Source of the DNA: Hydrocarboniphaga sp.
GTDB taxonomy: Bacteria; Pseudomonadota; Gammaproteobacteria; Nevskiales; Nevskiaceae
Reading direction: 5' to 3'
DNA length: 64,000 bases
NCBI RefSeq assembly: GCF_028291725.1
Contig: NZ_JAQGNT010000059.1
Coordinates: 1 to 64,000, forward strand
Under the pieces are notes generated by a model that had not been told where the DNA came from, searched no databases, and saw only the letters and a program-made list of their open reading frames with translations. The translations under genes were made by a program, and so were the position numbers. Of the stretch, positions 24,082 through 38,451 are shown one piece after another (within the stretch, counting starts at the first letter, position 1; every line of letters begins with the position of its first letter).

Positions 24082-24097
24082 GCGCGATGGAGCAGCG

Positions 24098-24658
24098 TCA
24101 GAGCAAATCGACAAATCCGGCCTTGGCCATCAGGTCGCTCATGTCCTCGCTGACGCCGTAACCGAAATTGCTGCAAGTGTGCCGCACGTCGTCCAGGCGC
24201 GCGGCCAGTTCATCGCGTTCGTCGTCCGGTAGCGTGTTCGCCTGCTTGAGAGCCTGCTCGAACATCCGCACCAGGGCATTGAAGTAGCCCTCATCCTCCA
24301 GGCCCACGTCGTTGCTGAAACCAGCCGCCTGCTCGCAATAGAACACCATCAGCTCGGCCAACTCCGCCGGCCGCGCGATGGCCTTGCGGTAGTCGGCAAT
24401 CGCTTTCTTCGCGGTTGAAACAGATATGTTCTGGTTCCTGGTGACGTCAGGCCACAGCCAGCGCTGGATCGTCGCCTTGTAAGGCTTCAGTACGTCATCA
24501 GCCGAGCCGAAGCGCGCGTGCAGAAATGTCTGGTTGTCCTTGCTCACGGCGTAAAGATCCTGAACCAGCCCCAGCAGCCCGGCGCGATCGAATTCGGCGA
24601 GCTGAGCCTTGATGTCGCTCCAGCCCGGCTTGGCTTTGCGTGGAGTCGCCGGCTTCAT
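24098..24658 (-). CDS. helical protein of unknown function, possibly DUF6155-like
   Basis: A 186-residue, mostly helical protein. The opening KPGWSDIKAQLAEFDRAGLLGLVQDLYAVSKDNQTFLHARF resembles proteins annotated DUF6155 ('L...L..l....Li.lI.dLY..n...k.fl...f'); this match is by eye. The C-terminal half 'LARMFEQAL...'-like helices (ALVRMFEQALKQANTLPDDE, HTCSNFGYG) suggest a four-helix bundle. It lies just upstream of the primase gene (16-bp gap to its ATG) and overlaps the small frameshifted gene upstream by 4 bp, so it may be an accessory of the TOTE-like locus. Confidence 0.6.
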   Translation of the reverse strand: MKPATPRKAKPGWSDIKAQLAEFDRAGLLGLVQDLYAVSKDNQTFLHARFGSADDVLKPYKATIQRWLWPDVTRNQNISVSTAKKAIADYRKAIARPAELAELMVFYCEQAAGFSNDVGLEDEGYFNALVRMFEQALKQANTLPDDERDELAARLDDVRHTCSNFGYGVSEDMSDLMAKAGFVDLL

Positions 24659-24962: not shown

Positions 24963-25340
24963 TCAGACCAGCGTCACGAGTTCGGAATAACCCACCAGCG
25001 CCGAATCGTGAGTCAACAGCCGCAGGGGTTCGCTCATAGCCTGCGCCACGAGCATGCGGTCGAACGGATCGCGGTGCAGTGGTGGCAACTCGCGCAATTT
25101 GAGGGTGTGGCGCCAGCTAACCGGCAGCTGCTGGAACCCAGCTTCGGCAAGCTTTTGCTCCAGCCGCGCGCTATCCACATCCAGTTTGCCCAAGCTCGCC
25201 TTGATCGCCATTTCCCACAGGCTGGCGGCGCTGACGAAAACCGCATCGGCCCCGTGCAGATGTGCCCTTGCAGCTGCAGATAAAGCCCGCGAATCCTGCA
25301 TGGCCCACAGCACCAGGTGAGTATCCAGCAGCAGCCTCAC
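24963..25340 (-). CDS. vapC: PIN-domain toxin, VapC family
   Basis: A 125-residue PIN-domain ribonuclease. It opens MRLLLDTHLVLWAM with the first catalytic Asp (Asp6), carries 'SAASLWEMAIKASLGKL' with the conserved Glu, and ends with 'HRDPFDRMLVAQA', containing the second Asp pair, and 'LLTHDSAL'. This is the subgroup that pairs with Phd-type antitoxins. The antitoxin gene lies upstream and overlaps by 4 bp (25337-25340). It should cut tRNA or rRNA when free of antitoxin; the target is unknown. Confidence 0.92.
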   Translation of the reverse strand: MRLLLDTHLVLWAMQDSRALSAAARAHLHGADAVFVSAASLWEMAIKASLGKLDVDSARLEQKLAEAGFQQLPVSWRHTLKLRELPPLHRDPFDRMLVAQAMSEPLRLLTHDSALVGYSELVTLV

Positions 25341-25579
25341 GATTTGCCTTTGCCTTCAAAGGCGTCCAGCACCTCGTCGGACAATGGCGCATCAAAATCC
25401 TTCGCGATCCTGATGCCGCCCTTCATCAATCCGAGCTGGATGCGGCGGCGCGGCGCCTCGATCGGCCCCAGCTTCGCCAGGGCTTTCCCCGCCTTGGCTA
25501 TTGTGACCGTTTCGCCCTTGCTGGCGGCGTCCACCAGTTCCGACAGGCGGGTCTTGGCTTCATAGAGATTGATCTGCAT
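25337..25579 (-). CDS. Phd/YefM-family antitoxin
   Basis: An 80-residue protein from the ATG at 25579 (MQINLYEAKTRLSELVDAA), a canonical Phd/YefM DNA-binding start. The C-terminal part (FDAPLSDEVLDAFEGKGKS) would wrap the VapC toxin. An upstream in-frame Met at 25609 would start inside the operator repeats and is less likely. The gene precedes and overlaps vapC by 4 bp. Tandem TTGACCAAC boxes directly upstream are the likely autoregulatory site. Confidence 0.9.
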   Translation of the reverse strand: MQINLYEAKTRLSELVDAASKGETVTIAKAGKALAKLGPIEAPRRRIQLGLMKGGIRIAKDFDAPLSDEVLDAFEGKGKS

Positions 25580-25591
25580 GGCGGGCCTCAC

Positions 25592-25610
25592 TTGACCAAC
25601 ATTGACCAAC
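25592..25610. promoter_or_regulatory. tandem operator boxes of the Phd/VapC pair
   Basis: TTGACCAAC occurs twice, at 25592-25600 and 25602-25610, with a 10-bp period (one helical turn), 12 bp upstream of the antitoxin ATG. Confidence 0.55.
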
Positions 25611-25858: not shown

Positions 25859-25871
25859 TATGGAGTCGGCC

Positions 25872-26111
25872 ATGAACAAGGTGTCGGTAGTGCAGGCCAA
25901 GGCCCATTTCAGCGAGATCCTGGCGAAGGTGGAATCCGGGCACGACGTGCTCATTACCCGTCGCGGTGCGCCCGTGGCGCGGTTGTCGGGCGTTGAACGG
26001 GTCAAGAATCCGCTGCGGCTGGATGCGATTGACGCCTTCCGTGCAAGCCTGAAGCCGACGCAAGAGCGCAGCGCAGACCTGATCCGGCGCATGCGCGACG
26101 AATCGCTCTGA
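25872..26111 (+). CDS. Phd/YefM-family antitoxin
   Basis: A 79-residue protein from the ATG at 25872 (MNKVSVVQAKAHFSEILAKV), with the typical Phd core 'HDVLITRRGAPVARL' that forms the DNA-binding dimer. The C-terminal helix (ADLIRRMRDESL) should occupy the VapC groove. An ATG 12 bp upstream is possible but adds no family residues. The stop TGA overlaps the ATG of the toxin (TGATG). It is the only plus-strand module within the island. Confidence 0.9.
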   Translation: MNKVSVVQAKAHFSEILAKVESGHDVLITRRGAPVARLSGVERVKNPLRLDAIDAFRASLKPTQERSADLIRRMRDESL

Positions 26112-26539
26112 TGCTTTACCTTGATACCAGTGTCCTGGTTCCGCTATTCGTGCCGGAACCGGAGTCAGGTTCAATGCGTGCGTGGTTTGATGCGCGGGCT
26201 GGGGAAACGTTGGCGATCAGCGATTGGACTCTGACGGAGTTCGCCAGCGCGATGGGAATCAAGGTTCGAGACAAAGGCCTCAAGGCAGGCCAGGCTCACA
26301 AGGCCTGTGCTCTGATGGAAAAACTGGCCGCTGACAGCTTAAAAGTTTTCACGCCGACGCGCGGCGATTACAGCAGGGCGACTGAACACCTCGGGCATCA
26401 TGCGCTGGGCCTGCGCGCCGGTGATGCGCTCCACCTGGCAATTGCCCAAAACGAAGACGCGGAGTGCCTCTATACGTTGGACCGTCGTCTCATTGAGGCG
26501 GCTCGCAAGCTCAAGGTCAAGGCTGCGAGCCCGATTTGA
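26111..26539 (+). CDS. vapC: PIN-domain toxin, VapC family
   Basis: A 142-residue PIN-domain ribonuclease: MLYLDTSVLVPLFVPE with catalytic Asp5, 'ISDWTLTEFASAMG' with the conserved Glu, 'LRAGDALHLAIAQ' with the second Asp, and 'YTLDRRLIEAA' with the third. The gene is translationally coupled to the Phd antitoxin. It differs clearly in sequence from the vapC at 24963-25340, so the two pairs are not a recent duplication. Confidence 0.92.
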   Translation: MLYLDTSVLVPLFVPEPESGSMRAWFDARAGETLAISDWTLTEFASAMGIKVRDKGLKAGQAHKACALMEKLAADSLKVFTPTRGDYSRATEHLGHHALGLRAGDALHLAIAQNEDAECLYTLDRRLIEAARKLKVKAASPI

Positions 26540-26641: not shown

Positions 26642-26669
26642 ATAAAAAACCCCGTAGTTTCACGGGGTT
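26642..26669 (-). terminator. intrinsic terminator (minus direction)
   Basis: Read on the minus strand, AACCCCGT - loop - ACGGGGTT is followed by TTTTTTATT. It is placed to end the abiE transcript and closely resembles the ssrA terminator at 38032-38059. Confidence 0.8.
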
Positions 26670-26716
26670 GATGTATTCCAGCGTAAGCCGCTGGATGCTT
26701 GAATGGTGGGGCGGGG
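26670..26716 (-). other. degenerate ssrA 3'-end copy, possible attachment-site remnant
   Basis: On the plus strand TGGTGGGGCGGGG (26704-26716) matches the ssrA 3' end TGGTGGAGGCGGGG (38095-38108) with one base missing. In both places it is followed (minus direction) by about 35-40 bp and then an AACCCCG hairpin terminator. A small palindrome CCAGCG-TAAGC-CGCTGG lies between. This order is what integration into the 3' end of ssrA leaves at the far end of an island. Homology stops soon after, so the identification is tentative. Confidence 0.45.
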
Positions 26717-26771: not shown

Positions 26772-27800
26772 TCAGTCAGATGCCCCCAAACGTGCCCCCG
26801 CGTTGATCTCATGCTCCAGGGCGCGCAGCCGTCCGATGATTTTCTCGAACGACGGGCGCTCACCGTAGAACATCCCGGCATCAATCATCGCGCGCAGATC
26901 GCTGGCGACGGCGTCGAGCAGGCGTTGATCTGGAAGCAGGCGTATGCCGCCGGTCTGGCAGGCGTCGTAGTTTGCGTAGCCAGCCCCGAAGAACACTTTC
27001 TTGTGTTTCACCACGTCGGCGAGCAGCGCGCGATCCGCCAAGGCCTGACGTCCGATGTCATGGTCGGCGAGCAGGGCCAAGTCATACCAATGGCGCGACT
27101 GGCGGTTGGCATCGGCCTTCAGATCGGGCCTGTGGCATTCGACGTGGATCAGCGTCACCTTCTCCCAAAATGTGCGGGCGGGCGAGAGCACGGTTACCGT
27201 CGCCGAGGGCAGGTCGAGGCTTGGAAGCCGATCCGCGATATACGGACGAACCTGATATTCGGCGTTCGGCTCGGTGATGTTGCGGCCGCCGAATTCGATC
27301 AGCACGCTGTTGCCGACATAGCCGGCTGCCTGGTCGAGGGCCGACGGATAGTAGATGCGGAACTCCTCGCCGTTATCGCTGACTTCAACGCGAGCATGCT
27401 GGGGATCGAACTGCTCTCTCAGTTGCTCGGTGAAGTAGGGCGTTGCCACCTCGTGCGCGTGGTCGCGGACGAATCCCTTCAGTGATTCGCCGAGCTTCTT
27501 GATCTGCGACTTGGACGTGTTGGCGTCGAAGGGATCAATGTCGGTGTCGAATCCGCGGTAGTCGAGCGTGACGTCCACGTCCTCCGAGAAGCGGCTGATC
27601 GCGTCGAAAACCTTCGATAGCGATGTGCCGCCTTTGAAAGCCATGGGCAGCCGACCCGGCATCTGGAAAAGGTGCTGCAGAACCCAGCAGACCCAGACGT
27701 CCTTTTCCAGGACGACTGCCGCGCGGCCCAACTCTGGCGCCAGGCCATTCAGAATCTCGGCCTGCTCTGCTAGCGGCAGCCGCAGAAAAGCCTCAGCCAT
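26772..27800 (-). CDS. AbiEii/AbiGii-type nucleotidyltransferase toxin
   Basis: A 342-residue protein of the AbiEii family. The nucleotidyltransferase signature is clear: 'AFKGGTSLSKVF' followed by 'RFSEDVDVTLDY', where the Asp residues bind the metal. The Lys/Trp/Asp motif 'RTFWEKVTLIH' and 'HWYDLALL' are also typical. AbiEii enzymes add nucleotides to tRNA acceptor stems (related toxins) and arrest growth, giving abortive infection. The antitoxin gene lies directly upstream and overlaps by 8 bp. The terminator at 26642-26669 follows. Confidence 0.92.
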   Translation of the reverse strand: MAEAFLRLPLAEQAEILNGLAPELGRAAVVLEKDVWVCWVLQHLFQMPGRLPMAFKGGTSLSKVFDAISRFSEDVDVTLDYRGFDTDIDPFDANTSKSQIKKLGESLKGFVRDHAHEVATPYFTEQLREQFDPQHARVEVSDNGEEFRIYYPSALDQAAGYVGNSVLIEFGGRNITEPNAEYQVRPYIADRLPSLDLPSATVTVLSPARTFWEKVTLIHVECHRPDLKADANRQSRHWYDLALLADHDIGRQALADRALLADVVKHKKVFFGAGYANYDACQTGGIRLLPDQRLLDAVASDLRAMIDAGMFYGERPSFEKIIGRLRALEHEINAGARLGASD

Positions 27801-28401
27801 TGACCGCCTGCTGCTCGTAGCGATAGAACACTGCCGCCATCCAGCCGGGCATCGATGCCTTGGCTGCCGAAAGCGCCTCGAACTCGCTGGCTGGCAGCTT
27901 CCGGCGAATTTTCTCGATGGTGCTGAGCGTCACTTCGTTCTTGCCCAGATACCAGAGCGCCGACAGTGCCACGCCCGCCGGGCGGCCAGCGAAGGCCAGC
28001 TTGCGCGACGCAGCGTGCTTGAGCACGACTTCCATTTTGCCCATCCGGAATCGTTTGCTCGGCCCGCTGGTGTAGAAGACCGGCTGCGTCGGGGTCTGGG
28101 TGGTCAGCTCAAAGCGCCGCGCCGCCTCCGCGCCATGCACCTGGAGTGACGCGCCCTTGGCCTTGGCCACCGTTTCCGCGACCTTGCTCGGCTCCGGCAG
28201 CACCTTGCCCAGATGCCGACTTTCTGTGGCGCGCACGAACACCCCGCGGGTCACGCGCGTGATCGCGCCAGCCTTCGCTAGGCGCGACAGCACCTGATCC
28301 ACGGACGCACGCGCGCCCATGCCCAGGAATGCGGCAGGGGTGAACGGCTCCCCGGCGGGTAGTTTCTGGACGTACTGGCGGATGAGTTCGGATGTGCTCA
28401 T
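27793..28401 (-). CDS. AbiEi-type antitoxin / transcriptional repressor
   Basis: A 202-residue protein from the ATG at 28401 (MSTSELIRQYVQKLP). The N-terminal winged helix (FTPAAFLGMGARASVDQVLSRLAKAG) and the following 'ITRVTRGVFVR' are typical of AbiEi/DUF6088 antitoxins. The C-terminal domain 'LSALWYLGKNEVTLSTIEKI' is the antitoxin part. AbiEi represses its own promoter by binding inverted repeats, and an inverted repeat overlaps the start codon here (28401-28429). A longer reading to 28437 would run through that operator and is rejected. Confidence 0.9.
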   Translation of the reverse strand: MSTSELIRQYVQKLPAGEPFTPAAFLGMGARASVDQVLSRLAKAGAITRVTRGVFVRATESRHLGKVLPEPSKVAETVAKAKGASLQVHGAEAARRFELTTQTPTQPVFYTSGPSKRFRMGKMEVVLKHAASRKLAFAGRPAGVALSALWYLGKNEVTLSTIEKIRRKLPASEFEALSAAKASMPGWMAAVFYRYEQQAVNG

Positions 28402-28429
28402 GTCAGAAAACATACAGAAATATCTGACA
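28401..28429. promoter_or_regulatory. operator of the abiE operon
   Basis: TGTCAGA (28401-28407) and TCTGACA (28423-28429) are perfect inverted repeats 15 bp apart, immediately upstream of the AbiEi start. The AT-rich spacing fits a repressed promoter. Confidence 0.6.
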
Positions 28430-28543
28430 GACGGCAATCACACCTGGGAAATTTTGACCTGTCCCCAACATTCGCAAACGCCAAATCGTTGCGGGCCAGC
28501 GGAGAGCATGTCGCAGTGTTCATGCGAGAACGGCGTCCGTTGA

Positions 28544-29995
28544 TCACATGAATAGTCGATACGCATAGGCATTGCCCGGCAGGCTTGGCACATTGGCGAT
28601 TGTTCGTGCTAATCGTTGTGAATATCGAATGGTGACGGGCACTGGGTCGTACAGGGCATCGTTGTTCCAATCCATCTTGGTTAACGCAAGGGCTTCAAGC
28701 GCGGTTATCTCCAATGGACCTATGCCAGCATGACGCACAAGACTGATCGGGCGCGGGATGCTCTTCTTGCCCTGGTAGTAGTCGCCCTGTAGCGCGGCAC
28801 GGGGAGCATTGCCAGCCACCCAGACCAGTACAGAATGTCCGGAGCGTTGCAGCACCGTGCCACGAGGGACCGGGTAGCCATCAGGCTCGCTGCGTACCCC
28901 CTGTTTCCGGCCTTGGTTCAGCCACACGCCGCGCCAGCCTGGGCTGCTCGCGACCTCAATGCATTCGACCTCAGGCACGGCCGACAAGGCATCCAGAGCA
29001 CCTTCCAGTTCCTCGGGCCTGAAGGCGGTCGTTTTGTGAACCACGAGGCGGCGAGGTAGCTGTCCACCGTTTCGACCCTGATAGAGGTGCAGACTGCGTG
29101 CCAGCACTGCGCGCATATCGTTCCGGCTCAGGAAGGGATTGCGTCGCGCCTCTTCGATGTCCTTGACAGGGTCTCGTGCCTCGAATGCAACGAATTGCAT
29201 TCCGCCGCCATCTGCGTCAAAGACCTGCGAGCAGCAGGTCACGTAATGAGCGTCCTTGGGGTCGCCCCGCAGGGCGTAAGCGAGGCCAATATAGGCCGTC
29301 CCTTCCGGAACCTCCGGAAGAGACGCCAGCTTCCAGGGTATGCCGCCTGCCTTCACATACAGGGCGATTGACAGGCGCCACGCCAGAGAGGCCTTGTACA
29401 GATAGTTGATCGCTCGGTCATTGATCACCTGCGTCGGGATGCTATATGCCGCTCCCAAGGCCTTGAGCGCATCGTGGGCATCGAAGCCCGGTGCCCTAAA
29501 AGCCGCTTGCCAGGCGTCTGGCAGATGGACGAGGGCGACATCGAACTGATCACGTACCAGCATCAGCCGATCCATTCCTCCTCGAAGGGCCTGCAACAAC
29601 CGCTCGTGCGCCAGTCCGCCCTCGCCTAGCGCGTTGAGATCATCAGGCAGCTTGATGTGAGCGCTGCCGGTTGGTGCTCCTATCAAGGGGACTCCAAAGA
29701 CGCCGACGAAACCCCGGAAGTACGGGACATACTCTTTTCGGTCCCCGGGCTTCTGACTCGATCGCAGAGTCTCGATCAAATCCCGCAACCCAGCCCATCC
29801 ACTCGCGGGTGCGATAGTTGCTATCCGCAAAGCCGGGGTATAGGCCCGGAACGTAGAGGAACTGTAGGGGCCATGGTGGTCGAGCCCACGTAGCGGGTTC
29901 ACGTCGAGTGACGTATCGGTCGGATCGAACGTCAACTGAGGTTCTTCCAGCAGAGCGAAGGGGGCCAGCTTCGACGCATCGAAAATAGCGCTCAT
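28544..29995 (-). CDS. short prokaryotic Argonaute (MID-PIWI)
   Basis: This 483-residue protein has the layout of short pAgos: MID then PIWI, with no N or PAZ domains. A MID-like segment 'YVPYFRGFVGVFGVPL' and 'VALVHLPDAW' is followed by 'YSIPTQVINDRAINYLYKA', then the PIWI hallmark 'ALYVKAGGIPWKLA' (about 211-224). The catalytic region reads AYIGLAYALRG where active Argonautes have an Asp, so the DEDX tetrad is absent and the protein should bind but not cut nucleic acid. It ends with 'RTIANVPSLPGNAYAYRLFM', typical of PIWI C-termini. Its start overlaps the SIR2 gene by ATGA. With that partner it forms a SPARSA-like pair: guide-directed target recognition should trigger NAD+ depletion by SIR2. 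The call rests on motifs read by eye. Confidence 0.87.
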   Translation of the reverse strand: MSAIFDASKLAPFALLEEPQLTFDPTDTSLDVNPLRGLDHHGPYSSSTFRAYTPALRIATIAPASGWAGLRDLIETLRSSQKPGDRKEYVPYFRGFVGVFGVPLIGAPTGSAHIKLPDDLNALGEGGLAHERLLQALRGGMDRLMLVRDQFDVALVHLPDAWQAAFRAPGFDAHDALKALGAAYSIPTQVINDRAINYLYKASLAWRLSIALYVKAGGIPWKLASLPEVPEGTAYIGLAYALRGDPKDAHYVTCCSQVFDADGGGMQFVAFEARDPVKDIEEARRNPFLSRNDMRAVLARSLHLYQGRNGGQLPRRLVVHKTTAFRPEELEGALDALSAVPEVECIEVASSPGWRGVWLNQGRKQGVRSEPDGYPVPRGTVLQRSGHSVLVWVAGNAPRAALQGDYYQGKKSIPRPISLVRHAGIGPLEITALEALALTKMDWNNDALYDPVPVTIRYSQRLARTIANVPSLPGNAYAYRLFM

Positions 29996-31860
29996 CGACG
30001 ATCCCGTAGAAAGTAGTCGTGCTCATGACTCGGGCGGCTCCAAGCCGTGGCCGGAGACAAGCGGAACTCGGCATCCTGACCTGCCCCGTCCTTCAGCCCA
30101 ACCGCGCGCAGGGAATAGGACCCATCTCCAGCTAGCATCTTTGCCCAGGCAGCGATGATCTGAGCCCAGGCTTGGTTGCGGCGCAAAACCCATCGTTCGC
30201 GCCGCCAATTGATCGCCGGGTCACCTTGTCGAAGAACCTGGAATGCGAGATCACCCGATGCAGCTTCGGCATCGCCGTCGTTATCCGCATCGCGGTGCGG
30301 GAACTCCACAGAGGTGAATGGCTCGAACGCGCACCACCACTGACCGTTCAAGGACTCCAGGCGGATCTGCACACCCTCATTGAAGGGATAGTCGAGGTCG
30401 GGAATATTGCCGACCAGGGCAGTGTTGTACGCACGCTTGAGCTCCGCAAGCTGCTTATCGCGACGAGTAGCGACTTCCGGCGTGTCGTTCGGAAACCCGC
30501 TTTGCACCAGCAGGGAGTGGCCTTTACGGCGTAGCCGGGCAAAAAGCGGTCGCCTGCGGCACAACGCGCGGACCAGCGCGTCGTAGAGCAGTCCGCGAGC
30601 CCAGCTATCTTTGTCAGGGTCCAATTCGAGCGTTCCTTCGACACGGCCCCCTACACTTGCAAAGGCGCGCTCGAGATCGATGTCAGTCCCGAAAGCCGCC
30701 AATTCACGCCCGGCGCTGGCGACGATGCCCCAGACCTTGGCCTCGCGTAGCAGTTCTCGCGCACGAGAAGTTGAAACTGGCTGATCGACCTGGATACGAC
30801 GCGCGATGGTCGGCAGGGCAAGTATCGGAAGCGCCGAGCATTGCAGCACGGGAAACTTCCGCCGCTCCGCCGTCGGCAGCGGAACCTCGCGGAGGACCGG
30901 ATCGGGACGCGCCTGATACACATGGGTCTGCAGTGGCCCCGGAAGCTCGATGCCGTCGGCAATGTCGGCCGCCAGTTCATCGAACGTCTGGGACTCTACG
31001 ACAGCAACGGAAACACCGGCTTTATCTGCCGTTTCCAGCAACTGCGTTACGGCGGGCAAGAGCGAATCTGCTGCTCGAGTCACCCAGAAAAGCCCGCCCG
31101 GAAATGCCTTGGGCTGCGCCAATGTTTCGGTCAGGGCTTCCATAACCGAGGCGTCGCGCCCGCTATAGCCGACCACCACGAGGCCGAAGCGCGCGCAAGC
31201 TGCCGACAATAGCCGCCGCATCTGCGAGTCCTGCGTTTTCAGTTCCGCGGTCGTGTTCTTCAGTTCGACCGATTGAAAGTCGCCATGCAGTTTGGCAAGC
31301 AAGGGCCAACGAGACTCGCGCATACACAGCTCGGCTCGAGAGGCGTTGTCGATGGCCGCAACGGTCAGATGGGCACGCTCAGCAGGCTCGACTAACTGGT
31401 CGGTCAGCGTTGCAGCGGTCTCTACCAGAGAGTCGAAGTTTGTTGTGAAGACGCAGGGAATCCGCTGGGTAGTGAGCAGTGCCGCGAGTACCCGGTGTGC
31501 GAAGGACGGGCTGCCTTTCTTGATCGCGGCCTCGACATACAGGCGACGATCTTCAGTAGTGGGGTAGACGGCCTCGAATGCCGCTGCGTATTCGGTTGGA
31601 TCGTTTGGCGTGGGGAGCGCCGAACGTGTACTGAGGAACGCATTGATCCTTTCGGTCCATAGTGGATCATTGGCATCGACTTCGCGCAGCGACATGCCGG
31701 AAAGCTGGCAGAACAACCGCTTCTTGAAGTCCGTGATCATCGCGTAGCCGGTGGGAACTCCGGCTGATGCGGAGGCTCCGGCGCCAAGGAACCAGGCCAG
31801 CATTTGCGGTCGCAGGCCGAACTGCCTCGCGAACTCTGGTCCCTTCAGCGTGCGGATCAC
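29992..31860 (-). CDS. SIR2-domain NADase with APAZ-like C-terminus (partner of short pAgo)
   Basis: This is a 622-residue protein. Residues about 20-280 are a SIR2 domain: FLGAGASASAGVP (25-36) binds NAD, TNFD (140-143) gives the catalytic Asn, LHGDF (191-195) the catalytic His192, and VVVGYSGRDASV (228-239) closes the fold. Residues about 300-620 lack known motifs but match in size and position the APAZ region that docks short pAgos ('EVPLPTAERRKFPVLQC', 'HSLLVQSGFPNDT', 'RRNQAWAQIIAAWAKML'). In SPARSA systems the SIR2 subunit hydrolyses NAD+ when the Argonaute finds its target, killing the infected cell. The gene overlaps hsdS by 4 bp and the pAgo gene by 4 bp, so it is built into the restriction operon. 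Confidence 0.88.
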   Translation of the reverse strand: MIRTLKGPEFARQFGLRPQMLAWFLGAGASASAGVPTGYAMITDFKKRLFCQLSGMSLREVDANDPLWTERINAFLSTRSALPTPNDPTEYAAAFEAVYPTTEDRRLYVEAAIKKGSPSFAHRVLAALLTTQRIPCVFTTNFDSLVETAATLTDQLVEPAERAHLTVAAIDNASRAELCMRESRWPLLAKLHGDFQSVELKNTTAELKTQDSQMRRLLSAACARFGLVVVGYSGRDASVMEALTETLAQPKAFPGGLFWVTRAADSLLPAVTQLLETADKAGVSVAVVESQTFDELAADIADGIELPGPLQTHVYQARPDPVLREVPLPTAERRKFPVLQCSALPILALPTIARRIQVDQPVSTSRARELLREAKVWGIVASAGRELAAFGTDIDLERAFASVGGRVEGTLELDPDKDSWARGLLYDALVRALCRRRPLFARLRRKGHSLLVQSGFPNDTPEVATRRDKQLAELKRAYNTALVGNIPDLDYPFNEGVQIRLESLNGQWWCAFEPFTSVEFPHRDADNDGDAEAASGDLAFQVLRQGDPAINWRRERWVLRRNQAWAQIIAAWAKMLAGDGSYSLRAVGLKDGAGQDAEFRLSPATAWSRPSHEHDYFLRDRR

Positions 31861-33026
31861 GCGGCAGATTCTCCATTTGTGGCCGCGCCAAACAGGCGCT
31901 CCAGCGTCGCCGGAATCAGGGACTGGTTCGCTTCGCGGATGGCCGAGTGCTTGGCTTTCAGTTCTGCGACCTTGGATTGGAGAGCGTCAAAGGCGCGCCG
32001 TGTTTCGATCGGTGGCACTGGAACCTCAATCACTGCGAGCTTTTCAATACCCAGCGTGCGGTTGCGGCCGGCTCCGCCCGGTGACGCTTCGCCGATCTTT
32101 TCCAAGCCTGCCTCGGTCAGGAAGTAGTAGCGGAGGAACTCTGCGCTGGAGAGTTGCTGGTTGACCACGCAGGTGATGAACCGGTGCGACCCGAAGCGGC
32201 TGGCATCCTCTGGCTGGGCGATGGCGATGGCGCCTTCCCAGGCGAAAACGTTGGAGAAAAGAAGGTCGCCGGGTTCGATGTGGAACAGACGCTTGCTTCC
32301 CGCTTCGGCTCCGCTCAATGGTGGCTTGTGGAACGTGCCTTTTCCGAATGAACGGATGCCGAGTTCAGGGTAGCTGCCCTCCAAGGACACTGCCTCCTCG
32401 CGCCGCACCAGCGGTGCGACCTCCGACATGGGCCGGACGGTGGCGGAGGCAACGGCGTCGCGGAAGCGCACGGCCAGCAGGCGGTCGGAATCGGCTTCGA
32501 TGTCGTCAAGATGCTTGTTCACCTGCCGCGCTTTGTCGGCCAGCGTGTCGAGGTGGGCAACGACGGCTTGCTGCTCGGCAAGCGGCGGGAGCGGAACAAC
32601 TATTTCCTGCAGCTTTTCGAGCCCGAGAGTTCGATTCCTGCCGGCTCCGCCCGGAGAGGCACGTTGAAGCTGGGCTAGACCATCTGGAGTTCCCAGATAG
32701 CGGACAAGGTAATTGGCGTCTGCGCGTTTGGAATCGACCGCACAGGTGATGAAGCGATGGGAACCGTAGCGCCCTCCATCGTCAGCGCCAGCAACGGCTA
32801 CAGCGCCTTCCCATGCGAACACATTGGAGAGAATCAGGTCGCCTTTCTCGATACGGAAAAGTCGCTTGCTACCTACTTGTGCTCCCTGTAGCGGCGGCTT
32901 ATGGAATGTGCCCTTTCCGAACGAGCGAACTCCCAACTCGGGGTATACGGCATCAAGGTCAATATCCACTGGTCGCCTGACGAGTGGAGCAATCTCCCCG
33001 AAGCGAACCTTGGGGTGCGGCTTCAT
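31857..33026 (-). CDS. hsdS: type I restriction-modification specificity subunit
   Basis: HsdS chooses the DNA site for the HsdM/HsdR complex. This 389-residue protein has two target-recognition domains (about 1-150 and 195-340), each followed by a helical spacer (LAEQQAVVAHLDTLADKARQ; 'ETRRAFDALQSKVAELKAK'). The two TRDs are strikingly alike: YPELGVRSFGKGTFHKPPL versus YPELGIRSFGKGTFHKPPL, LILSNVFAWEGA versus LLFSNVFAWEGA, GSHRFITC in both, and ASPGGAGRNRTLG in both. Two near-identical TRDs predict a bipartite site with identical half-sites in inverted orientation. Start overlaps hsdM (ATGA) and the stop overlaps the SIR2 start. Confidence 0.95.
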   Translation of the reverse strand: MKPHPKVRFGEIAPLVRRPVDIDLDAVYPELGVRSFGKGTFHKPPLQGAQVGSKRLFRIEKGDLILSNVFAWEGAVAVAGADDGGRYGSHRFITCAVDSKRADANYLVRYLGTPDGLAQLQRASPGGAGRNRTLGLEKLQEIVVPLPPLAEQQAVVAHLDTLADKARQVNKHLDDIEADSDRLLAVRFRDAVASATVRPMSEVAPLVRREEAVSLEGSYPELGIRSFGKGTFHKPPLSGAEAGSKRLFHIEPGDLLFSNVFAWEGAIAIAQPEDASRFGSHRFITCVVNQQLSSAEFLRYYFLTEAGLEKIGEASPGGAGRNRTLGIEKLAVIEVPVPPIETRRAFDALQSKVAELKAKHSAIREANQSLIPATLERLFGAATNGESAA

Positions 33027-34813
33027 GTAGCGGTCTCGCTGACCAGTATGTCGATCTCACCGAGCAGTCGCATCACCTCCTGCTCTTTGACACGCATAGC
33101 GGCCACCAGGTCCTTCGGATCGGCGTGTTCCAGTCCCTGCCTGGCGTTGGGATTCTTGAGGTCGAGGTTGTAGAGCGGCCAGTAGAGGGCGTCGCCACGG
33201 ACCTGAGCTGCTTTCGCAGTGGCCTCGTGCGCCTGCTGTCTGGCTTTCACCTCCCGCTGTTGCGCAGTCAACGCAGCCTTATCGCTGTTGCTTGCGTTGC
33301 TTAGTGCAAGTTCCAGATCGCGCAGCGGCTTGCCGAGCGCCATCGCGTTTGTGCGCTCGGCCTCAGCGTGCTGCCAGTGCGGCGTGGCAGCGGCGACCGC
33401 TGCGGCCTTGCGAGTGGCGAAGTCCAGCTTCCAGGCTTGAGGTCCTTCCTCGCGCTGGTTCCACCAGGCCTGTGCCGCGGCGAATTCCTCGAATTGCAGG
33501 GGTGCGGTCTTGGAGTATTTCTTTCGGCCTTCCGGCAACGGCAGCTCGTAGTACCAGATGTCCTGCGTCGGTCCGCCGCGCTCGAAGAACAGCAGGTTGG
33601 CCGGGATATCGGTATAGGGCGCGAACACACCTTGCGGCAGGCGCACGATGGTGTGGAGCCGGAACTCCTTGAGCATCTCTTCTTTGATGACGGCACAAAC
33701 ACCGTCACCGAATAGCATGCCGTGAGGTACGACCACGGCGGCGCGTCCGCCGCGCTCGGCGCCGAAGCCGGCCACGCGCAGCTTGCGCATGATGAATTGC
33801 AGGAACAGCAGCGCGGTTTCCGACGTCTGCATATTGGCGGGGAAGTTGGCCTTGATGCCAGCCTCCTCCTCGCCGCCGAAGGGTGGATTGGTGAGAATGA
33901 CGTCCACGCGCTCGCTGTGGCCGATTTCGCTGACGCGGCGCTCCAGCGTATTGCCGTAGGCGATCTGCGGCGCCTCCAGCCCGTGAAGCAGAAGATTCAT
34001 CTGTACCAACATATACGGCAGTGGCTTGGCTTCCTGCCCGAACAGGGTTTCGCGTTGCAGTGTGTGTCGCTCTTCGGTCGTCTTGATCGATTTAGCAATG
34101 TGGTCGTAAGCCTCTACCAGGAAGCCGCCGGTGCCGCAGGCCGGGTCCAGCAGGGTTTCGCCGAGCTTGGGGTCGGTGACCTGCACCATGAAGCGCACGA
34201 CCGGACGCGGCGTGTAGAACTCGCCGGAGTCGCCGGCCGCGTCGCGCATTTCGCGCAGCATGGATTCGTACAGGTGCGAGAGGGTGTGAATCTCCTCGCT
34301 GCTGCTGAAGTGAATTCCGTTGATCTTGTTGACGATATCGCGCAACAGATAGCCGCTGACCATGCGGTTCTGCACGCCCTTGAAGACGTTGGCGATGACC
34401 TCGCGCTGGCTGCCTTTCTCACTCTCTCCCGAGAGACTGCGCAGATAGGCAAACAAACCCTTGCCGTGCTGGCCGTCCGGGCGGATGGTTTCTTCCTGGT
34501 TGATGAAAGCCAGCAGCTCATCGCCGCTCAGACCGTCCTGGCGCGTGCCCCAGTCGCGCCAGCGATACGGTGCATCGACGATGGCGTGATATGGTCGGCC
34601 GTCGAGTTCGCATTCTTCGGCGTGGACGATTTCGAGGTCGTCGAGGAACTTGAGGAACATCACCCAGGTGAGCAGCGGCAGGCGATCCACGTCGCCGTTG
34701 AGGCCCTTATCCTTACGCAGAATCTTGCGCGCGCTGCCGATCAGCGCGGTAAGGTTCTCGCGCGTGGTGAGCTGGACCTTGGCTTTCCTGGTCGTCTTTT
34801 CCTTCGGGGGCAT
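33023..34813 (-). CDS. hsdM: type I restriction-modification methyltransferase subunit
   Basis: This 596-residue N6-adenine methyltransferase protects host DNA and forms the M2S core of the restriction complex. The N-terminal helical domain (about 1-150) is followed by the SAM-binding motif LLDPACGTGGFLVEA and the catalytic motif NPPFGGEEE. The C-terminus contains a long Ala/Gln/Lys-rich coiled coil (about 480-540) and ends with 'AAMRVKEQEVMRLLGEIDIL'. It starts 9 bp after the hsdR stop and overlaps hsdS by 4 bp. Confidence 0.96.
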   Translation of the reverse strand: MPPKEKTTRKAKVQLTTRENLTALIGSARKILRKDKGLNGDVDRLPLLTWVMFLKFLDDLEIVHAEECELDGRPYHAIVDAPYRWRDWGTRQDGLSGDELLAFINQEETIRPDGQHGKGLFAYLRSLSGESEKGSQREVIANVFKGVQNRMVSGYLLRDIVNKINGIHFSSSEEIHTLSHLYESMLREMRDAAGDSGEFYTPRPVVRFMVQVTDPKLGETLLDPACGTGGFLVEAYDHIAKSIKTTEERHTLQRETLFGQEAKPLPYMLVQMNLLLHGLEAPQIAYGNTLERRVSEIGHSERVDVILTNPPFGGEEEAGIKANFPANMQTSETALLFLQFIMRKLRVAGFGAERGGRAAVVVPHGMLFGDGVCAVIKEEMLKEFRLHTIVRLPQGVFAPYTDIPANLLFFERGGPTQDIWYYELPLPEGRKKYSKTAPLQFEEFAAAQAWWNQREEGPQAWKLDFATRKAAAVAAATPHWQHAEAERTNAMALGKPLRDLELALSNASNSDKAALTAQQREVKARQQAHEATAKAAQVRGDALYWPLYNLDLKNPNARQGLEHADPKDLVAAMRVKEQEVMRLLGEIDILVSETAT

Positions 34814-34822
34814 TCAGTGCTC

Positions 34823-37195
34823 TTATTGGTATAGGGCGGATTGCAAACGGGACACCGCGTCCTTCATGCCCTTCACGCCGCCGAAATGACGCGCGGCGAT
34901 TTCGGAAGGGCTGCCATAACGGTCGAAGGGTTTCACCTTCATCAGCTCGGAGAGCGCGCTGAACTGTACGATACCGCGCTCCACATATTTCTCCAGTAGC
35001 AGCGAGAGAACGTCGCGGGCGGTTTCACCGTGTTGCGCGAATAAATCCTGCGCCGCTTTGCGGGCACGCTCGGCACGCTGGCGGCGCGTGAGTAGCGGTG
35101 CGTTCCAGGCGAGATGGCAGAGCAGATCGAAGGGATCGGCGTCGGGCTGGTCGCTGGCGGCGGCGAGTTCCTCGAAGCTGATGCCGCGCTCGGTCAGCTC
35201 CCGCAGGACTTCGACACGGGTGTCCGGGTTCGACCAGGCGGATTGCAGGGCATCGCGGCTGGGATACATTGAGCGCACCGCTCGGCCGGAATACTCGGTG
35301 TAGCTCGCCACCTGGAGCTTCTTGCCCTCGGTGTCGAGGTCGTAAACCAAGTGGCCGATGATCTCGACTTCGCCACCATCGACGTAGAACTTGCGTGGCT
35401 CGTCGGGTGGGTCGGTGATGATTTCGGCATCGCCGTCAGCAGGCTCGACGACGTATTCGGCTTCTGGCTCCGCGATGCCGGGGGTGGGCTCGACGACTGT
35501 CTCCACCGTCTCGCCTTCCGGGCCGATGATGACCTCTTCGATTTGCGCAGGATCGCCGTCGAATTCCGGGTCGGCGAAATGGCGGGTGGCCGTGCCGGTG
35601 AAATCGACGATGTTGAAGTATTCCTTGCCGTAGTCGGTCTTCAGGCGCGTGCCGCGGCCGATGATCTGCTTGAACTCCGAGCGCGAGCCGACCACGCGGG
35701 CGAGCACGACGTTCTTCACCATCTCCGCATCCACGCCGGTTGTCAGCAATTGCGAGGTGGTGAGGATGACCGGTGTGGGCTTGTCCACGTCCTGGAAATA
35801 GCCAAGGTGCGTAAGCCCGATCGTGCCCTCGTCGGCGGTCACGCGGCAGACGTAGTCGGGGTATTGCTTGACGAGGTCGCTGTTGAGATTCACCAGCTCC
35901 TGGCGGAATTCGGCGGCGTGTTCCTGATCGACGCAGAACACGAGGGTCTTGGCGAAGCGATCCGTGCCCTTGAGGAAGTCGGTCAAATGCCGGGCCATGG
36001 CCTTGGTGCGCGCGCGGAGTGCGACAACACGCTCGAAGTCCTTGGTCTGGTACTCGTCATCCGGCACCGCGCGGCCGAACCGATCCAGTTCATCCTTCGA
36101 GGGCCTCCAGCCAGCGGCATCGACTGAGGTAATGACGCGGTGCACGCGATAGGGTGCGAGGAAGCCATCCTCAATGCCCTGGCGCAGGCTGTAGGTGTAG
36201 ACCGGGTTGCCGAAGTAGTTGTAGCTGTCGCGCGACTCCTCGCGCAGCGGCGTGGCGGTCATGCCGAACTGCACGGCAGGCGTGAAGTAATCCAGAACCG
36301 CGCGCCAGCTGCTGGTGTCCCGCGCGGACCCGCGATGGCATTCGTCGATGACGATCAGGTCGAAGAAATCCGGCCGGTACTGGCGAAAGACATCTTCCGA
36401 AGCCGTGGAGAGCGACTGGTAGATGCCGAAGTACATGTCGCGGCTTTGGCTGGTGTCGCCACCGCTGATCTTGTGCCGGGCGTCGCCAAAGGGCGCGAAC
36501 ATCTTCGCCATCGGGTCGTCGACCAGGATGTTGCGGTCGGCGAGGAACAGGATCTTGGGGCGCCGGTATTCGCCGGTGCGGTTCCAGCGGCTGTTCCACA
36601 GCTTCCAGCAGATCTGGAAGGCCACACAGGTTTTGCCCGTGCCGGTGGCCAAGGTCGCGAGGATGCGTTTCTGACCGAGCAGGATGGATTCGATAACGCG
36701 GTTGATGGCAATCTGCTGGTAATAGCGTGGCACCTTGCCGGACACCAGGTTGAACGGTTCCAGCAGGTGGGGCTCAGCGGTTTCTGGAATCGCCGCGGCT
36801 CCACTCAGTCGCTGCCACAGCTCAGCGGGGGTCGCGTATCGCTCAACCTGCTGCTCGGTGCCGATGAGGTAGTCGATCTCGATGATGCGGCTGCCGTTGG
36901 TGGCATAAGCGAACTTGAGCCCGAGCATTTCGGCGTACTCGCGCACCTGCTGCACACCGGTTTCGGCAGGCAGGCCAAGTTCCTTGGCCTCGACAACGGC
37001 GAGCGGAAAATCGCGGCGGTAGTACAGCAGGTAGTCCGGCTTGCGCTGCTTTCCACGCCGGACCTTGCCTCCAGCCACAATGATCCGGCCGTTCGTGATG
37101 CTGCGTTGCTCACCGATGGAGTGCGGAGACGTGGACCAGCCGCTTTCGACGATTTTCGGTGTGACCAACTCTCGGCAGGTGTCCGCTTCTGTCAT
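34823..37195 (-). CDS. hsdR: type I restriction endonuclease, motor/nuclease subunit (EcoEI-like)
   Basis: This 790-residue protein runs from the ATG at 37195 (MTEADTCRELVTPKI), the usual EcoEI-type start; a GTG at 37225 overlapping the vapC stop (GTGA) would add ten residues. Counted from that GTG, the nuclease domain has PDYLLYY then AVVEAKE (63-81, PD...ExK). The SF2 motor has Walker A ATGTGKT (about 193-199), DECHRG, GMTATPLRE and 'QIIGRGTRLKTDYG'. An acidic Glu/Val/Pro-rich insertion (about 560-615) precedes the C-terminal HsdM-binding domain. The enzyme translocates DNA and cuts unmodified invaders at distant sites. It is the first restriction gene of the operon, preceded by vapB-vapC. 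Confidence 0.95.
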   Translation of the reverse strand: MTEADTCRELVTPKIVESGWSTSPHSIGEQRSITNGRIIVAGGKVRRGKQRKPDYLLYYRRDFPLAVVEAKELGLPAETGVQQVREYAEMLGLKFAYATNGSRIIEIDYLIGTEQQVERYATPAELWQRLSGAAAIPETAEPHLLEPFNLVSGKVPRYYQQIAINRVIESILLGQKRILATLATGTGKTCVAFQICWKLWNSRWNRTGEYRRPKILFLADRNILVDDPMAKMFAPFGDARHKISGGDTSQSRDMYFGIYQSLSTASEDVFRQYRPDFFDLIVIDECHRGSARDTSSWRAVLDYFTPAVQFGMTATPLREESRDSYNYFGNPVYTYSLRQGIEDGFLAPYRVHRVITSVDAAGWRPSKDELDRFGRAVPDDEYQTKDFERVVALRARTKAMARHLTDFLKGTDRFAKTLVFCVDQEHAAEFRQELVNLNSDLVKQYPDYVCRVTADEGTIGLTHLGYFQDVDKPTPVILTTSQLLTTGVDAEMVKNVVLARVVGSRSEFKQIIGRGTRLKTDYGKEYFNIVDFTGTATRHFADPEFDGDPAQIEEVIIGPEGETVETVVEPTPGIAEPEAEYVVEPADGDAEIITDPPDEPRKFYVDGGEVEIIGHLVYDLDTEGKKLQVASYTEYSGRAVRSMYPSRDALQSAWSNPDTRVEVLRELTERGISFEELAAASDQPDADPFDLLCHLAWNAPLLTRRQRAERARKAAQDLFAQHGETARDVLSLLLEKYVERGIVQFSALSELMKVKPFDRYGSPSEIAARHFGGVKGMKDAVSRLQSALYQ

Positions 37196-37221
37196 CACCG
37201 CGGGGTGAGTCGCCTGGCTGT

Positions 37222-37629
37222 TCACTTGGCCTCCGGTGTCACCAGCGGGACAGTGGGGAAGTAGTTCTTGTAGCGCCGGGTGTCGCGGGTCAGGATTCCG
37301 CAGCCAAGCACTGCCGCATGGGCGCCAATGAAAAAGTCCGCCAGAATGCTCGTTCGCTGACCGCCGCCGTGACGGTACTTCACGAAGGCGCGGCCGGCCA
37401 GGAAGAGCGCGGGGCGGGGTAGCTCCTGGTATGCGAGTCCTATGTCGTCGATCACGTCGTCGAGAGCATCGACAGAATCGAAGGTTAACGACAGTTCTGA
37501 ATAGATCACCGGATTGATGAGCAGCTCATGCACTTGGGCCTGAGCCCGTAGCTGGCGCACCGACCAGTCCGCCCATGCCGGGTCGTCTTCGAGCACGTCC
37601 AGCAGGACGTTGGTGTCCACGAGCATCAT
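37222..37629 (-). CDS. vapC: PIN-domain toxin, VapC family, leading the restriction operon
   Basis: A 135-residue PIN-domain protein (MMLVDTNVLLDVLEDDPAW with catalytic Asp5, 'INPVIYSELSLTF' with Glu, 'SILADFFIGAHAAV' with Asp, 'ILTRDTRRYKNYFP'). This subgroup (VapC of the type paired with AbrB-like VapB) is usually a tRNA- or rRNA-cutting RNase. It follows vapB by 10 bp, and its stop lies 26 bp before the hsdR ATG or overlaps a possible hsdR GTG. It is thus part of the same transcript as the restriction and SIR2-Ago genes. Confidence 0.92.
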   Translation of the reverse strand: MMLVDTNVLLDVLEDDPAWADWSVRQLRAQAQVHELLINPVIYSELSLTFDSVDALDDVIDDIGLAYQELPRPALFLAGRAFVKYRHGGGQRTSILADFFIGAHAAVLGCGILTRDTRRYKNYFPTVPLVTPEAK

Positions 37630-37639
37630 GGGGCGTCGC

Positions 37640-37879
37640 TCAGTCTGCCCCGCGTAGAAGCGCCATCAGTTCATCGGTGCGCCACTTGACCTGTGCCTTG
37701 CCACGCGCCGACTCAAAGCGGTCACGTTTGCTGGCGGGCCGCCCGCCAGCCTTCTGCACGACGACCTGACCCTCGCGGTTCACATCAAAGTCCACGCCAT
37801 CGCCTGGTGACAGGCGCAGCGCGTCCCGCACCTTCTTGGGGATGGTGACTTGCCCTTTGACCGTCATTGTCGTAGCCAT
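37640..37879 (-). CDS. vapB: AbrB/MazE-like antitoxin, VapB family
   Basis: A 79-residue protein from the ATG at 37879 (MATTMTVKGQVTIPKKVRDA), the swapped-hairpin AbrB DNA-binding fold. The C-terminal tail 'AQVKWRTDELMALLRGAD' would bind and block VapC. It is the first gene of the island operon. A GTAATAC inverted repeat directly upstream is the likely site of autorepression, which would also set expression of the restriction and SIR2-Ago genes downstream if no internal promoter exists. Confidence 0.92.
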   Translation of the reverse strand: MATTMTVKGQVTIPKKVRDALRLSPGDGVDFDVNREGQVVVQKAGGRPASKRDRFESARGKAQVKWRTDELMALLRGAD

Positions 37880-37893
37880 GACCGGCTCCATGC

Positions 37894-38031: not shown

Positions 38032-38059
38032 ATAAAAAACCCCGCAATTACGCGGGGTT
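38032..38059 (-). terminator. terminator of ssrA
   Basis: On the minus strand AACCCCGC - loop - GCGGGGTT is followed by TTTTTTATG, 36 bp after the ssrA 3' end. Confidence 0.88.
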
Positions 38060-38094
38060 CAAGTACATCTTCGGTTCCTCTTGGAACCTTGATT

Positions 38095-38451
38095 TGGTGG
38101 AGGCGGGGGGAATTGAACCCCCGTCCGCCAATGCTCCGCCTTCGGTTCTACATGCGTAGCCTAGTCTTTGGTTTTCATCCCCAGCTGCCGAACAGGCACG
38201 GAACGCTGAGGCCTATCCCCTTGAGGTTTTCGAGCATCGGCGAAGGGCGCGCGTCAGCCTTATTCGGTAAGAGTCGACGTTTGATTCCGGAGTACCGACA
38301 CTGCCGGGTCAAACGCTCACCGGAGTTTAGGCGGCGAGGGCGTAGTTGGAGTCGTTCGCAACTAGCTTGTTTGCAGACCGTTTAACGAGCAGATCTGCAG
38401 CTCGGCATGCCCCTCGGGTTTTGCGATCGACGTCGAAACCATGTCGCCCCC
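38095..38451 (-). ncRNA. ssrA: transfer-messenger RNA (tmRNA)
   Basis: The 357-nt RNA rescues stalled ribosomes. Its 5' end GGGGGCG pairs with 3' CGCCTCC to form the tRNA-like acceptor, CCA is encoded, and the T arm reads GGGGGTTCAATTCCCCC. The 5' segment GGGGGCGACATGGTTTCGAC is a classic tmRNA start. The tag reading frame (minus strand, 38360 to 38328) is GCG AAC GAC TCC AAC TAC GCC CTC GCC GCC TAA, giving ANDSNYALAA. smpB, which encodes its partner, lies 2.4 kb upstream on the same strand. The 3' end is also the boundary of the defence island. Confidence 0.97.

Follow-up and report, generated by a model that had tools for sequence, protein, structure and literature searches.

A SIR2-APAZ/short Argonaute pair at the tail of a type I restriction-modification operon in Hydrocarboniphaga

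We analysed a stretch of 64,000 nucleotides from Hydrocarboniphaga sp. (Nevskiaceae; contig NZ_JAQGNT010000059.1, positions 1 to 64,000; hereafter the window), in which a type I restriction-modification (R-M) operon, hsdR-hsdM-hsdS, continues directly into the genes for a SIR2-APAZ protein and a short prokaryotic Argonaute (pAgo), the two components of a SPARSA system. The same five genes, in the same order, are present in a genome of another genus. We read the locus as a composite operon, in which a complete EcoAI-like R-M system carries a complete SPARSA system as cargo, the two being co-expressed as independent layers of defence. We give this reading a probability of roughly 0.7. HsdRMS would first cut unmethylated incoming DNA, and DNA that escapes restriction, e.g., because it is methylated or arrives with a phage anti-restriction protein, would meet a second layer: SIR2-APAZ/Argonaute, with a guide RNA, would recognise the foreign DNA and hydrolyse NAD+, and the infected cell would be stopped. 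The two modules would act separately and be joined through expression, from a shared transcript with coupled translation.

Organisation of the locus

The seven genes of the run are encoded on the minus strand from position 37879 to 28544, as a preliminary description of the window had put it, and their families are those it had named according to Pfam and PADLOC. They are listed here with the best supporting matches (E-values), followed by the features that flank them, among which is an AbiE pair that the preliminary description had overlooked.

37640..37879 (an in-frame ATG also lies at 37891), minus: vapB-like antitoxin of the AbrB/MazE type, MazE/PrlF-type (Pfam MazE_antitoxin, 2.4e-9)
37222..37629, minus: vapC-like PIN toxin (Pfam PIN, 1.5e-9)
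34823..37225, minus: hsdR, EcoAI/EcoEI-like translocase-nuclease (Pfam ResIII, 6.3e-38; EcoEI_R_C, 8.6e-34)
33023..34813, minus: hsdM, N6-adenine methyltransferase (Pfam N6_Mtase, 7.5e-60)
31857..33026, minus: hsdS, specificity subunit (PADLOC Specificity_I, 8.8e-180)
29992..31860, minus: SIR2-APAZ NADase, with a GTG start overlapping the hsdS stop (PADLOC Aga_SIR2-PNTD1-PNTD2, 4e-216; PDB GsSir2, 1.9e-67)
28544..29995, minus: short prokaryotic Argonaute (MID-PIWI) of the SPARSA type (PADLOC pAgo_I, 1.5e-201; PDB GsAgo 8in8, 5.1e-97)
27793..28437, minus: AbiEi antitoxin, 106 bp past the Argonaute gene (PADLOC AbiEi, 6.4e-61)
26772..27800, minus: AbiEii nucleotidyltransferase toxin (Pfam AbiEii, 2.4e-39)
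26648..26669, minus: terminator-like hairpin past AbiEii (hairpin scan)
38037..38060, minus: terminator-like hairpin of ssrA, between ssrA and the operon (hairpin scan)
38095..38451, minus: ssrA (transfer-messenger RNA, tmRNA), beside a variable site (ARAGORN; comparison with genome G002)

The genes are tightly packed. The largest gap in the run is 10 bp (vapB/vapC), that between hsdR and hsdM is 9 bp, and the four other junctions are 4-bp overlaps, with the sequence ATGA at hsdM/hsdS and SIR2/Ago and GTGA at hsdS/SIR2 and vapC/hsdR. The preliminary description had given ATGA for three of these; this stands for hsdM/hsdS and SIR2/Ago, and is to be corrected to GTGA for hsdS/SIR2. For the other junctions it had given gaps of 9-26 bp or less; two of them are the gaps measured here, and at vapC/hsdR the genes overlap. 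The GTGA overlap places the SPARSA pair immediately after hsdS, as had been proposed.

The type I genes of the window form a complete set, with nuclease, helicase, methylase and specificity parts, and their assignment to the HsdR, HsdM and HsdS families is supported by both Pfam and PADLOC. HsdR has the motifs PD...EAK and DECH, HsdM has DPACGTG and NPPF, and EcoAI/FtnUII is the family to which HsdR is annotated in most of the related plasmid loci. Going by these matches and motifs, the R-M system is EcoAI-like (type IB) and is predicted to cut and to methylate. The two halves of its HsdS (31857-33026) are 55% identical over 180 aa, compared with 18-29% in the second genome and five plasmid relatives, and we therefore predict a near-symmetric two-part recognition site.

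The SIR2-APAZ protein (622 aa) is identified by Pfam and PADLOC, in agreement with the preliminary description. The PADLOC profile is covered from position 1 to 555 of 558, and the match to GsSir2 spans residues 7-517. Its N141 and H192 align with N142 and H186 of GsSir2, which are the catalytic Asn and His according to the available passages of PMC10781750. The Argonaute (483 aa), also recognised in the preliminary description, is identified by PADLOC and by the PDB sequences: residues 7-483 align with residues 5-473 of GsAgo, and this alignment together with the pAgo_I match makes it a short type with MID and PIWI and without PAZ. It has no Pfam family at E-values up to 0.01, and no match to it was found in phage records. 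Over these alignments the two proteins are orthologues of GsSir2/Ago, the solved SPARSA pair of Geobacter sulfurreducens. The PIWI catalytic residues of GsAgo are reported as substituted (available passages of PMC10781750), and by orthology those of the window Argonaute are probably replaced too. The biochemistry of SPARSA, i.e., NAD+ hydrolysis triggered by guide RNA and target DNA, would carry over from GsSir2/Ago in the same way.

A promoter and a terminator isolating SIR2-Ago from the genes upstream would speak for separate expression. Between the ssrA hairpin and the hairpin past AbiEii, a scan for sigma-70 consensus sites, which is a weak test, found no promoter-like site on the minus strand, and the terminator-like sites on that strand are three weak ones (35067-35050, 35368-35354 and 27806-27794).

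Conservation in a second genome

The arrangement is present in a second genome, G046, which belongs to another genus of the same family and encodes hsdR-hsdM-hsdS-SIR2-Ago in the order of the window at a different site. At E-values up to 1e-100, HsdM was found in five of 58 genomes of the family, one of them being G046 with the cluster. For SIR2, a search of 85 genomes from the order gave two at E-values up to 1e-60, G046 and the genome of the window itself. The proteins of the two clusters are 90% (HsdR and HsdM), 44% (HsdS), 71% (SIR2) and 82% (Ago) identical. The ATGA overlap of hsdM/hsdS and the GTGA overlap of hsdS/SIR2 are kept in G046. The synonymous divergence (dS, Nei-Gojobori) is 0.87 for hsdM, 1.3 for hsdR, 1.5 for hsdS and 2.3 for SIR2, that of Ago being not computable. 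With values of 0.87-2.3, the arrangement is not recent, and a gene order and an hsdS/SIR2 overlap that recur in a genome with such strongly diverged synonymous sites are beyond chance. Careful trees were built from 27 chosen rows, and they place the window next to G046 as its sister, with supports of 100/99 for SIR2 and likewise for Ago; a quick tree of 90 Ago rows pairs them with a support of 98. As placed by these trees, the link of SPARSA to hsd genes is of one origin.

The junction between the two modules has a further feature in both genomes, a ribosome-binding-site-like sequence inside hsdS (AAGGAGG, 6 bases before the SIR2 start, in G046; GGAG, 10 bases before it, in the window). Because of this sequence and of a SIR2 start that lies within the hsdS stop, we predict that the amount of SPARSA scales with that of HsdS. 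In line with a cargo carried by a restriction system, HsdS has changed between the window and G046 while SIR2/Ago stays.

The surroundings of the cluster are not shared. The pair that precedes the G046 cluster consists of a PIN toxin, without significant similarity to the VapC-like toxin of the window (22.7% identity, E-value 0.73), and a Phd/YefM antitoxin. Past Ago, G046 has a convergent alcohol-dehydrogenase-like gene, and AbiE was not seen there. Its flanks are metabolic-type genes, and no tRNA or tmRNA was found near the cluster within the stretches read. Since head and flanks differ, the conserved unit is hsdR-hsdM-hsdS-SIR2-Ago. VapBC was rejected as an essential head, against the preliminary description, which had placed it at the head of the operon, and membership of AbiE in the unit is not supported. 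The toxin-antitoxin pair ahead and AbiE behind are most likely exchangeable neighbours.

Related restriction operons carry other genes

We compared the hsd operon of the window with 30 related loci, whose HsdM is about 42-81% identical to that of the window. They comprise 21 of the 23 plasmid records matched (the two omitted are near-copies of ones that were read) and nine other genomes. We counted as cargo any gene other than hsd that shares the strand of the operon, is no more than 60 bp away from an hsd gene and lies between hsd genes or directly past hsdS. By this rule, 14 of the 30 loci carry cargo (13 without G306, whose gene is exactly 60 bp away), i.e., 7/21 plasmids and 7/9 genomes. 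The cargo of plasmids consists of a DUF1016-type nuclease (Azotobacter), a hypothetical gene followed by an MqsA antitoxin (Polaromonas), an RNA-binding-domain protein with DUF4297 (Aliarcobacter), FRG, a NucS-like gene and a hypothetical gene (Paracoccus), an AAA ATPase with a nuclease-domain gene (Pseudoalteromonas), a DUF262 pair (Vibrio aerogenes) and an RNA-binding-domain protein (Pseudanabaena, where a Phd/YoeB pair lies further along, before hsdS). In genomes, we found SIR2 with HerA (G326), PtuA with PtuB, i.e., Septu (G040), PDC-S11 (G004), a DUF1016-type gene (G340), DUF3800 (G047), AAA_13 (G374) and DUF6119 (G306). The remaining loci, 14 plasmids, G510 and G416 (no HsdS found), are without cargo or unclear; among these plasmids, the Pseudorhodobacter record is unannotated, and a short hypothetical gene between hsdM and hsdS of Pseudomonas aeruginosa was excluded from the count. 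A tblastn search with SIR2 and Ago of the window found neither in the hsd operons of the 30 loci; G374 has a separate pAgo. Since 14 of the 30 related operons carry other genes there, SPARSA would be one module among many to occupy a position that is used repeatedly.

Two loci may be singled out for their layout. At L182:6980-11210, SIR2 and HerA lie right past the hsdS of an operon of the same hsd family, at a gap of 4 bp. At L141:2650-7234, PtuA and PtuB (Septu) lie right past hsdS, in a genome of the window's family that has the genus code of G046.

These patterns bear on the idea that the locus results from crowding in a defence island, its genes being chance neighbours that are separately expressed and its overlaps a product of compaction. 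The region is indeed rich in defence-type genes (a TOTE-type primase/helicase, three PIN-containing pairs and AbiE, beside the variable ssrA site), and the linkage is found in two genomes only. Yet two genera retain the gene order and the 4-bp overlap of hsdS with SIR2 at different sites and among different neighbours, through strong divergence at synonymous sites, and cargo recurs in the same operon region of relatives. We consider crowding very unlikely.

SPARSA loci are rarely linked to hsd genes

We gathered 97 SPARSA-type loci besides the window and G046 (about 93 without copies): 80 of the 517 confirmed relatives from a profile scan of public genomes, among the matches listed, nine loci on viral contigs, of which three are distant (24-34% identity), four on plasmids, and four in genomes G282, G428, G229 and G519. 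Four pairs have the same or nearly the same DNA (L035/L086, L036/L096, L121/L092 and L073/L071), and two more pairs share parts. Some stretches are short, so that six of the 90 loci with a usable SIR2 match have no upstream open reading frame in view. None of the 97 loci has hsd genes beside SIR2 on the same strand, as judged by tblastn with the Hsd proteins of the window and by HsdS and HsdM profiles. G046 is the sole case. Among 20 other short-pAgo loci, hsd genes on the strand of the pAgo were likewise found in none (0/20), and one, G374, has an EcoAI-like system 3.5 kb from the short pAgo on the opposite strand. Because most of the relatives fetched show no nearby hsd genes, the SPARSA pair is a module of its own.

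The preliminary description had also suggested that restriction fragments feed guide or target recognition. We found no evidence for restriction fragments as a source of guides, and most of the 97 loci have no R-M gene nearby by the probes used; nothing speaks in favour of this idea.

Other genes were seen next to short-pAgo systems. SoFic (Fic) lies just upstream of SIR2-APAZ in at least 9 of the 46 cases with a same-strand upstream gene, e.g., L062, L064, L067, L078 and L079. At L185:3520-9777, a short pAgo, overlapped by the gene upstream of it, converges on an hsd operon; the HsdM-HsdS open reading frame of this operon is followed by an AAA_13 gene that overlaps it by 4 bp.

Close relatives adjoin other restriction-type systems

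The closest relatives of the pair have neighbours of another kind. In L039 (Azospira), L040 (Pollutimonas) and L042 (Achromobacter), an operon on the same strand, upstream of SPARSA, encodes a helicase-domain protein (700-821 aa), an Eco57I-type methylase (about 1310 aa) and an SMC/RecF-like ATPase (535-668 aa), and ends 77-117 bp from the pair (L039:25-11458, L040:12-11458 and L042:6-11458). The methylase matches PADLOC type IIG restriction-methyltransferases (2.8e-98 in L039 and 1.3e-104 in L040). The three are near-copies and thus count as one case. In L043 (Erwinia typographi; L043:1711-8139), a type I system of a different kind, with an HsdM 28% identical to that of the window, runs on the opposite strand, with 196 bp between SIR2 and the start of its HsdR. 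The window, G046, L039, L040, L042 and L043 form a clade in the SIR2 tree (96/97), and the same six rows group with lower support in the Ago tree (85/83). All six adjoin a methylase system, of three kinds: type I on the same strand (two), helicase/IIG-like/ATPase (three) and divergent type I (one).

Since our probes derived partly from these loci themselves, we added a screen for methylase motifs alone. It was positive in eight of 98 loci (the 97 plus L011), and in 0/98 when the sequences were reversed as a control. Five of the positives are L011, L039, L040, L042 and L043; the other three (L052, L122 and L124) fall outside the clade and carry the methylase-like frame on the opposite strand. 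The screen is incomplete, as it missed L046 (L046:9759-20077), in which a methylase (PADLOC MTase_II, 7.8e-179) lies 86 bp past Ago on the same strand; beyond it are a 922-aa gene without a Pfam match and then a helicase-domain gene. In L065, the probe search found a methylase far downstream on the opposite strand. L041 (Burkholderia), whose Ago is 77% identical, has no restriction neighbour detectable by the probes and screen used. A view of the nearest SPARSA relatives as stand-alone systems fails for three of them, L039, L040 and L042, with their same-strand operons, and L046 has its methylase past Ago. The restriction-associated subclade itself, which was seen post hoc and in few lineages, we offer as a lead from comparative data.

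It bears on a reading in which the Hsd complex guards the effector, as in PrrC systems: the complex, or HsdS, would restrain SIR2-Ago or tether it to DNA, and a phage that blocks restriction would free NAD+ hydrolysis, or else the ends made by HsdR would be the preferred target. PrrC offers a precedent, being latent in a type I Hsd complex and switched on by an anti-restriction peptide (available passages of PMC3506569). The six-row clade, with a DNA-methylase system beside SPARSA in every row, fits such a reading, as do the hsdS/SIR2 overlap retained in two divergent genomes and the AAA_13 gene that overlaps the related hsd operon of G374 in the same slot. However, an effector guarded in the manner of PrrC would be linked to hsd genes in diverse bacteria, and here the same-strand linkage is confined to the window and G046, with 0/97 elsewhere; in most other loci fetched, neither the probes nor the motif screen revealed such a neighbour. 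The HsdS proteins of the window and G046 also share only 44% identity, and their SIR2 proteins have no insert or extra domain relative to eight relatives without same-strand hsd genes. An adapter domain of SIR2 for Hsd was not seen in this comparison and was dismissed. Nor does any single Hsd contact explain the subclade, because the restriction partners within it differ. We regard such a guard as unlikely.

In its strongest form, this reading makes R-M and Argonaute one sensor-effector machine, in which restriction is watched and its blockage, or its DNA ends, license the destruction of NAD+. We hold this form to be improbable as well. If it were true, the SPARSA subclade of the window would be specialised in guarding several types of restriction, and EcoAI-like operons would represent systems under guard whose effectors can be exchanged.

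Points against the composite operon

Several observations weigh against the composite operon as we read it. The linkage of hsd genes and SPARSA is found in two genomes only (two of the 85 searched in the order), and in G046 SIR2 and Ago are separated by a gap of 6 bp instead of overlapping. The nearest SPARSA relatives lie beside other restriction-type systems, which may indicate a functional tie closer than co-expression. The promoter scan, limited to sigma-70, proves little: it gave 1 site versus a mean of 2.5 in shuffled sequences, and the terminator scan gave 11 versus 10.4. With promoter-like sites fewer than in shuffles and terminator-like sites about as many, these scans are weak evidence for one transcript.

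Finally, identity at third codon positions between the window and G046 is higher in HsdR/HsdM (55-63%) than in SIR2/Ago (41-45%), so that the parts of the operon may not share one history. An [hsdS-SIR2-Ago] block could have recombined into different hsdRM backbones, in place of one old five-gene unit, a scenario compatible with the other readings. The drop in third-position identity falls at hsdS, and the third-codon G+C content of the window points in the same direction, being lower in hsdS/SIR2/Ago (0.66-0.68) than in hsdR/hsdM (0.79-0.81). Still, HsdS is the most different of the proteins, as expected from specificity swapping alone, and the trees of SIR2 and of Ago pair the window with G046. 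Such a recombination appears doubtful to us.

Relation to described systems

Embedded defences are reportedly the subject of a 2024 preprint by Payne et al. The window pair resembles the SPARSA systems known from structures (GsSir2/Ago, PDB 8in8 and others) in the adjacency of SIR2-APAZ and short Argonaute, in the aligned catalytic N/H and in the length of the matches. In the available passages of PMC10781750, SPARSA is described as a two-gene operon, whereas in the window the pair ends a type I R-M operon. PrrC, of the PrrI type I system, is likewise a second-line effector encoded with type I R-M, but it acts as an anticodon nuclease that Hsd holds latent (PMC3506569, in part), and the effector of the window is a predicted Argonaute-guided NADase whose contact with Hsd is hypothetical. 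Two-gene defence modules embedded in type I R-M operons are described for TgvAB (the VPI-2 type I R-M cluster of Vibrio cholerae) and DarTG2 (a type I R-M island of EPEC) in the parts available of PMC11411939 and PMC12255303. The former is a type IV restriction pair and the latter a toxin-antitoxin pair, both between hsd genes, whereas the cargo of the window lies past hsdS.

Associations of this kind were anticipated. In the passages available, Makarova et al. (2009) found pAgo statistically associated with R-M, abortive infection and toxin-antitoxin genes (PMC2743648), Makarova et al. (2012) proposed a coupling of immunity and suicide and linked Sir2 enzymes both to type I R-M and to pAgo (PMC3506569), and Ryazansky et al. 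(2018) listed HsdS (og_11) among the proteins of pAgo operons (PMC6299218). An hsdRMS-SIR2-Ago operon is not mentioned in the passages of the last, nor is a separate figure for og_11. SPARSA within an hsd operon was not found in the literature searched, which is thin in subscription papers and preprints. Within that literature, embedded defences are already published and SPARSA as a cargo of an hsd operon is apparently new.

Defence within defence is thus known, and the joint function of the embedded parts is the question that this operon makes testable, because parts of one operon can be swapped or removed. Both parts have known biochemistry in relatives. L041 provides a close relative without a detected restriction neighbour for comparison, and further material is given by the near relatives next to other restriction systems and by the hsd operons with SIR2-HerA, Septu, the DUF262 pair, the NucS-like gene or AAA_13.

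Setting of the operon

The operon lies in a defence island beside a variable site. From ssrA to position 20418, the window spans 17.6 kb; the counterpart in G002, of the same genus, is 1.75 kb. In G001, positions 20001-45000 of the window have no nucleotide match within 12 kb past ssrA, and the contig of G003 stops at the ssrA site. ssrA is at most a possible attachment site. The sole item in favour is an imperfect 34-nt direct repeat (82%; 26642-26675 and 38032-38065), formed by the two terminator-like hairpins that bracket the block from vapB to AbiEii. The 28-nt 3' end of the tmRNA has a single occurrence in the window (up to three mismatches), and the final 17 nt have a single one in the genome (up to one mismatch). 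At the G002 site, 3.1 kb scanned for repeats contained nothing like the 34-nt repeat.

Ahead of vapB lies an inverted repeat, GTAATAC-N13-GTATTAC, at about 37920-37894. As a VapB operator driving the operon it was rejected: it is not significant, since arms of this length arise in 41 of 300 shuffles, and no repeat of that size was found ahead of the G046 pair.

Elsewhere in the island, the gene of a TOTE-type archaeo-eukaryotic primase (Pfam AEP-TOTE, 1.4e-90) overlaps that of an adjacent ResIII helicase (21572-24114, minus strand). Near AbiE are two further Phd-like/PIN pairs, at 24963-25609 (minus strand) and 25860-26539 (plus strand); in the former, PIN is identified by Pfam and its Phd-like partner by similarity to the antitoxin of G046.

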